DNA of 64,000 bases from Numida meleagris (lineage: Eukaryota; Chordata; Aves; Galliformes; Numididae): the NCBI RefSeq assembly GCF_002078875.1, contig NC_034409.1:59721244-59785243 (forward strand). Direction: 5' to 3'. Position 1 is the first letter of the stretch. Each line of letters starts with the position of its first letter. The position numbers were made by a program, and so were the translations under genes. The notes beneath the pieces were generated by a model. The model did no database searches, was not told the origin of the DNA, and saw only the letters and a program-made list of their open reading frames with translations. Below are positions 9,138-44,130 of the stretch, piece after piece.

Positions 9138-44130
<34,993 letters not shown>

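Follow-up and report, generated by a model that had tools for sequence, protein, structure and literature searches.

A candidate stop-bearing counterpart of the therian 11-codon DRP1 exon in the DNM1L gene of Numida meleagris

Human exon 17 (LIQDSRRETKN), an 11-codon alternative exon, belongs to the work on microtubule-bound Drp1(-/17) and holds Arg566/567, reported as tubulin binders in mammals, according to PMC11467262, and PMC6824841 describes an association of Drp1D and Drp1BD with microtubules; we infer that exon D of the mouse is the same 11-codon exon. At the place where this exon would be expected, the DNM1L gene of Numida meleagris carries a 30-nt segment that reads LKKNRR*TKN, and the question raised by this locus is whether a segment with an in-frame stop is the counterpart of the therian exon and, if so, how it came to be non-coding and what its inclusion in the message would do.

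The DNM1L gene and the segment in its B-insert intron

The exons of DNM1L were first placed by tblastn with a human DRP1 query, and splice-exact reconstruction established a complete and intact gene on the minus strand (43908 to 9138) of the window, by which we mean the whole 64,000-nt stretch of DNA that was analysed. The gene comprises 19 coding exons, with 18 of 18 introns being of the GT-AG type, and specifies a product of 722 aa with Dynamin_N, Dynamin_M and GED domains, the last of these at residues 625-716. Aside from a 10-residue alternative exon, this protein differs at 3 residues from the Gallus protein P0021 and at 3 residues from the Coturnix protein P0018. The features of the gene that are needed in what follows are:

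28403-28441, minus strand: A-insert exon in the GTPase domain, 39 nt, open, start placed by hand
18189-18218, minus strand: open 30-nt microexon between the exon ending at 18941 and the exon starting at 17701
16433-16510, minus strand: 26-codon B-insert exon (human exon 16, mouse exon C), open frame
16388-16432, minus strand: 45 nt of open frame by which the 26-codon exon could run on into the intron, similar extensions being annotated in other birds
13917-16432, minus strand: segment-bearing intron, 2516 nt
16093-16122, minus strand: stop-containing segment, probable counterpart of the 11-codon B-insert exon of therians, 30 nt, phase 0, LKKNRR*TKN
16102-16104, minus strand: in-frame TAA at the position of the human GAA (Glu) codon, the alignment being counted from the 3' end
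13749-13916, minus strand: constitutive exon downstream of the segment-bearing intron

Read from 16122 to 16093 on the minus strand, the segment with its flanks is AG/TTA AAG AAG AAC AGA AGA TAA ACT AAA AAT/gtgagt. It follows the 26-codon exon (16510 to 16433) and precedes the exon at 13916 to 13749 with phase 0 kept, which is the location of an orthologue of exon 17/D. The human peptide at this place, LIQDSRRETKN, has 11 codons and the bird segment 10, of which the TAA is the seventh; an 11-codon open frame, which would be needed for coding and not for descent, is absent. A preliminary description of this DNA had taken the 26-codon exon to be intact, had put a 30-nt phase-0 segment reading LKKNRR*TKN at the expected place and had set its TAA opposite the human GAA. 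The first of these is borne out by the open frame at 16510 to 16433, the second by the agreement of the letters with the exon map, and the third by the alignment at 16104 to 16102 when counted from the 3' end.

The three other alternative exons that were inspected in DNM1L, namely the 26-codon B-insert exon, the A-insert exon and the microexon at 18218 to 18189, are all open. The donor of the A-insert exon is weak (score 0.8). The microexon corresponds to the pattern DIExFEETxH, which occurs in 4 of the 73 bird clusters listed in our protein searches (isoforms of Gallus, Coturnix, Anas and Spheniscus) and, among those listed, in none of the 49 placental and 19 marsupial clusters. A reading in which the 26-codon exon runs on into the intron, GKVCLD, is present in 12 of the 73 bird clusters listed; five of the 12 carry 15-codon additions (Athene noctua, Egretta, two of Numenius, and Indicator), some are plainly other joins, and turkey P0186 has a 14-codon addition to the 26-codon exon. 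The extension at 16388-16432 may be a bird-specific form of the B-insert. The segment-bearing intron also contains, at about 15040-15300, what we take to be a CR1-like repeat. Elsewhere in the window, two related stretches at 47578-47934 (minus strand) and 41349-41660 (plus strand), the second being related to an antisense reading of the first, resemble remnants of a mariner-type transposase, and a Pfam search of the former gave no match at E up to 1. A FYVE zinc-finger exon (Pfam PF01363, E 5.1e-12) at 61635-61937 on the minus strand is, to judge from synteny, probably part of the neighbouring gene FGD4.

Similarity to the therian exon, splice sites and the predicted hairpin

Similarity to the human exon was assessed at the level of both peptide and DNA. 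All AG..GT segments of 27, 30, 33, 36 or 39 nt in phase 0 were scored against LIQDSRRETKN, and LKKNRR*TKN, with a score of 21, ranks first among the 63 such segments of the intron (runner-up 3) and first among the 2397 of the window on both strands (runner-up 16, VTADADRHCRN at 2977); the same score was reached by 1 of 2000 first-order shuffles of the intron. The preliminary description had named a separate LIQD-like exon elsewhere in the intron as an outcome that would overturn its reading; none is present among the 63 segments, and with the best other segment scoring 3 against 21 this candidate is ruled out. PMC11467262 prints the first 16 nt of human exon 17, TTAATTCAGGACAGCA, together with the start of the following exon. 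When a presumed 33-nt sequence of the human exon was matched to the intron it gave a score of 38, as compared to 30 at the second-best place and to a shuffle maximum of 37 (0 of 150 shuffles equal), and when the printed 16 nt were combined with the back-translated peptide 1 of 150 shuffles was equal. The best local match stops exactly at 16093, the last base of the segment, and in the optimised alignment 26 of 30 aligned bases are identical to the human exon, including 16 of 17 towards the 3' end, where the 17 human nt are presumed ones. Peptide and DNA shuffles thus both point to the sequence similarity that is to be expected of an orthologue of exon 17/D, and position, phase, the RR*TKN tail, the nucleotide match and the donor agree in supporting orthology to the 11-codon exon of therians.

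The splice sites were scored with consensus matrices, with the 18 constitutive donors and 18 constitutive acceptors of DNM1L as the reference. The elements around the segment are:

16141-16146, minus strand: TGCATG, 18 nt upstream of the segment
16123-16142, minus strand: acceptor region ending in tgttgacag, weak, matrix score 0.62
16087-16092, minus strand: donor gtgagt (AAT/gtgagt), strong, score 8.37
16059-16093, minus strand: RNA hairpin predicted by folding, 14 bp with a 2-nt bulge, the whole donor being paired

The preliminary description had called the acceptor good, which does not hold, as its score of 0.62 lies beneath those of all 18 constitutive acceptors; 72 AG sites in the intron, this one counted, score at least 0.62. 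Its claim of a strong donor is upheld, the score of 8.37 exceeding those of 9 of the 18 constitutive donors and being reached by 2 sites in the intron, the segment's own counted, and the T/gtgagt form is also used by the constitutive exons ending at 21906 and 21566; the predicted hairpin may mask this donor. Pairs of AG and GT at a distance of 15-60 nt with sites this good number 7 in the 32,602 intron bases of DNM1L, the segment again counted.

The hairpin was spotted post hoc and is predicted in one species, and its folding energy of -16.7 kcal/mol corresponds to z values of -3.5 and -4.6 in two cuts of the sequence, with 1 and 0 of 200 shuffles, respectively, being equally stable. The folds of the 18 constitutive donors range from 0 to -9.8, as compared to -16.7 at the segment donor; 1.06% of 940 DNM1L windows are as stable, and of the 21 windows with GTRAGT in DNM1L only that of the segment donor is (4.8%). 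The fold of the 130-nt neighbourhood is unremarkable (z -1.1, with 30 of 200 shuffles equally stable), and a search of the whole window against Rfam at gathering thresholds gave zero matches. The TGCATG upstream of the segment, which we take to be an RBFOX-type motif, shows no sign of enrichment, with 2 copies in the 2516-nt intron and 16 in 34,770 nt of DNM1L. As regards use as a poison exon, the segment thus presents a good donor inside a predicted hairpin and a weak acceptor.

Distribution of the insert and age of the non-coding state

Three protein searches, of which the best 120 of 2886, the best 120 of 245 and 3 of 3 matches were considered, together listed 207 distinct DNM1L clusters, and clades were assigned to these from the source names. 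Among the clusters listed, the 11-aa insert is present in 39 of 68 from therians (23 of 49 placental and 16 of 19 marsupial) and in 0 of the 137 named non-therian ones; these 137 comprise 73 from birds, 39 from turtles, 19 from squamates, 3 from monotremes, 2 from caecilians and 1 from a sturgeon, and the insert is likewise absent from 2 unnamed clusters. The query of the second search was a turtle protein to which the insert had been added, so that sauropsid carriers should come near the top, and the top 24 rows of its best 120 of 245 matches are insert-bearing therians, with turtles and birds, all lacking the insert, below them. The third search, with caecilian flanks and the insert, returned 3 matches from 74 candidates, 2 caecilian proteins without the insert and 1 rodent protein with it; as its filter for candidates was overly strict, it carries no weight for frogs or fish. 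Since clusters conceal members (one bird cluster stands for 319 sequences), rare isoforms escape annotation and only the best 120 matches of the longer lists were considered, an insert-bearing sauropsid isoform could be missed; frogs and most fish lie outside the sample, and crocodiles are not present in it by name. With this scope, it seems that birds, perhaps like sauropsids in general, do not make the insert, which was either gained in therians or lost early elsewhere. A single therian gain would be simpler than losses in both sauropsids and monotremes and is not proven.

Two protein models of the blue tit (Cyanistes caeruleus) bear on the same locus. The first, P0049, reads ...EADGK-LKCEFPASS-DSSQ..., and its KCEFPAS is encoded exactly, in a frame different from that of LKKNRR*TKN, at this place of the N. 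meleagris sequence:

16076-16096, minus strand: KCEFPAS stretch, running from the last bases of the segment across the donor into the flanking sequence (E 1.7e-4 in a comparison with the whole window)

The donor and its flank are therefore apparently kept in a passerine, which suggests that the locus and its donor predate the galliform-passerine split. The second model, P0056, reads ...FKEGGQKIT-DSSQ... and can be set, by its position, against KEEQKIN, which is the segment read in a shifted frame; when read back to phase 0, KEGGQKIT becomes L/S-K/R-K/R-x-x-K/R-K/R-(TAA, TCA or TTA), and this peptide implies a T in the blue tit as the first base of the codon that is GAA in human. Used alone, the P0056 fragment does not find the segment locus among its four best matches in the window, and our preferred explanation is weakened because this fragment does not by itself locate the segment. 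To judge from the peptides, the blue tit seems to differ from the segment by indels in A-runs. Neither model can serve as proof of splicing, as both enter the next exon mid-way (compare P0059) through non-canonical joins; they may be forced protein-to-genome alignments, and we take them as evidence of the DNA at the locus and not of splicing. If they are rightly read, the broken state would have existed before the galliform-passerine split. In contig collections the donor flank had 0 matches among genome contigs and 0 among viral contigs, and 7 matches of the exon tail to viral contigs were taken as chance.

The non-coding state thus looks old and may be ancestral, because the insert is found in 0 of the 137 named non-therian clusters listed and because of the blue tit models. 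The preliminary description had the exon dying, or decaying, in this lineage: that the segment is stop-bearing and non-coding stands, and a loss in the bird lineage is not the simplest account of these 137 insert-free clusters.

Explanations of the segment and comparison with known systems

The explanation that we favour, and regard as reasonably probable, is that the segment is an old non-coding orthologue of therian exon 17/D which is normally skipped and would trigger nonsense-mediated decay (NMD) if included. It would share its descent with the therian exon (number 17 in human, D in mouse) whose codons are inserted into the variable domain of DRP1, its in-frame TAA would bar coding, and this state is probably old. 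Its splice sites would have persisted, with normal skipping through the weak acceptor and perhaps through a hairpin covering the donor. Inclusion would end the message after 564 codons, ahead of the GED, and NMD would be expected because four exon junctions follow the TAA, at distances of 9, 177, 287 and 447 nt, an in-frame stop more than about 50 nt upstream of a junction being the geometry of a poison exon. Because of this TAA, the segment would either be left out of the message or silence it. Actual use as a poison exon is putative.

A plain dead relic, that is a coding exon lost fairly late in birds whose leftover splice sites have no role, is possible, if doubtful. The stop, the one codon fewer than in human and an acceptor below all 18 constitutive ones are what such a relic should look like, and so is the degree of identity if the loss was recent: with the human exon taken as unchanged and the number of substitutions/site on the bird branch assumed, the identity of 26/30 fits neutral drift over 0.2-0.3 substitutions/site (P 0.37-0.10). 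A late loss, however, would require extra independent losses to explain the 0 of 39 turtle, 0 of 19 squamate and 0 of 3 monotreme clusters listed with the insert, and the donor flank is apparently kept in the blue tit. A loss near the amniote split fits the clade pattern better; on the same assumptions, neutral decay since about that time would leave this identity with a P of 0.005 at 0.5 and 0.001 at 0.6 substitutions/site, and such a loss would mean constraint on a non-coding exon.

That the segment is an actively used poison exon, whose regulated inclusion, through opening of the hairpin at the donor or lifting of repression at the weak acceptor, lowers DRP1 by NMD in some bird tissues, is a stronger form of the favoured explanation and compatible with it, and we consider it rather unlikely. 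An identity above the neutral expectation at 0.5-0.6 substitutions/site (an assumed distance), a good donor whose flank is apparently retained in the blue tit, a stop and junctions placed as suits NMD, and a weak acceptor combined with a hidden donor as suits regulation all speak for it. On the other side, the acceptor is poorer than 18 of 18 constitutive ones, the identity equals the neutral expectation at 0.2-0.3 substitutions/site, the count of matches was taken from an alignment that was optimised and whose human sequence is partly presumed, and the peptides of the blue tit point to indels in its A-runs. Unlikely, too, is the reverse polarity, in which the amniote ancestor had a stop-bearing poison exon that sauropsids kept and that therians made coding by a change from TAA to GAA; were it true, therians would thereby have gained microtubule-bound DRP1, and birds would still have the poison exon of the ancestor, its donor paired in a hairpin.

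Chance, meaning that an AG..GT pair of the usual intronic kind reads RR*TKN by accident, is very improbable: equally good pairs do occur in DNM1L introns (the 7 counted above, segment included), and single shuffles equalled the peptide score (1 of 2000) and the degenerate DNA score (1 of 150), but intron, order, phase, length and peptide must all fit together, the segment is the top one of 2397 in the window with a DNA alignment that ends right at its donor, and blue tit P0049 indicates the same spot. An assembly or sequencing error that turned GAA into TAA is scarcely credible, for although a single assembly stands behind the TAA, the segment is also one codon short of human, the blue tit peptide implies a T at the same base and the insert is found in 0 of the 73 bird clusters listed.

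If the favoured explanation of an old non-coding orthologue is correct, this bird should be without a microtubule-bound DRP1 of the exon-17 type. If sauropsids and monotremes indeed lack the insert, DRP1 bound to microtubules, like the brain form that has all four alternative exons, would be a trait of therians, and results on rodent isoforms would not be simply transferable to birds. Poison and degenerate exons are already known as a kind; among the matches listed in a search of literature titles, no paper on bird DRP1 splicing or on this segment was found.

The donor of MAPT exon 10 carries a stem-loop, and the segment, for which the hairpin is predicted in one species, would likewise have the donor of an alternative exon paired. 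Poison exons, such as the cryptic ones of human introns described in PMC11632617, resemble the segment in being stop-bearing cassettes with several junctions downstream and kept splice sites; they differ in that inclusion, NMD and conservation are putative for the segment, and 'DNM1L' is absent from the main text of that paper. With therian exon 17 the bird segment shares the intron, the order, phase 0, the Arg-Arg pair, the TKN tail, the TTAA start and most of the 3' half, whereas it has a stop in place of Glu, one codon fewer and a weak acceptor, and cannot code. The segment would also offer a checkable case in which poison exon and coding exon are alternative states of a single element that differ, at the stop, by one base.
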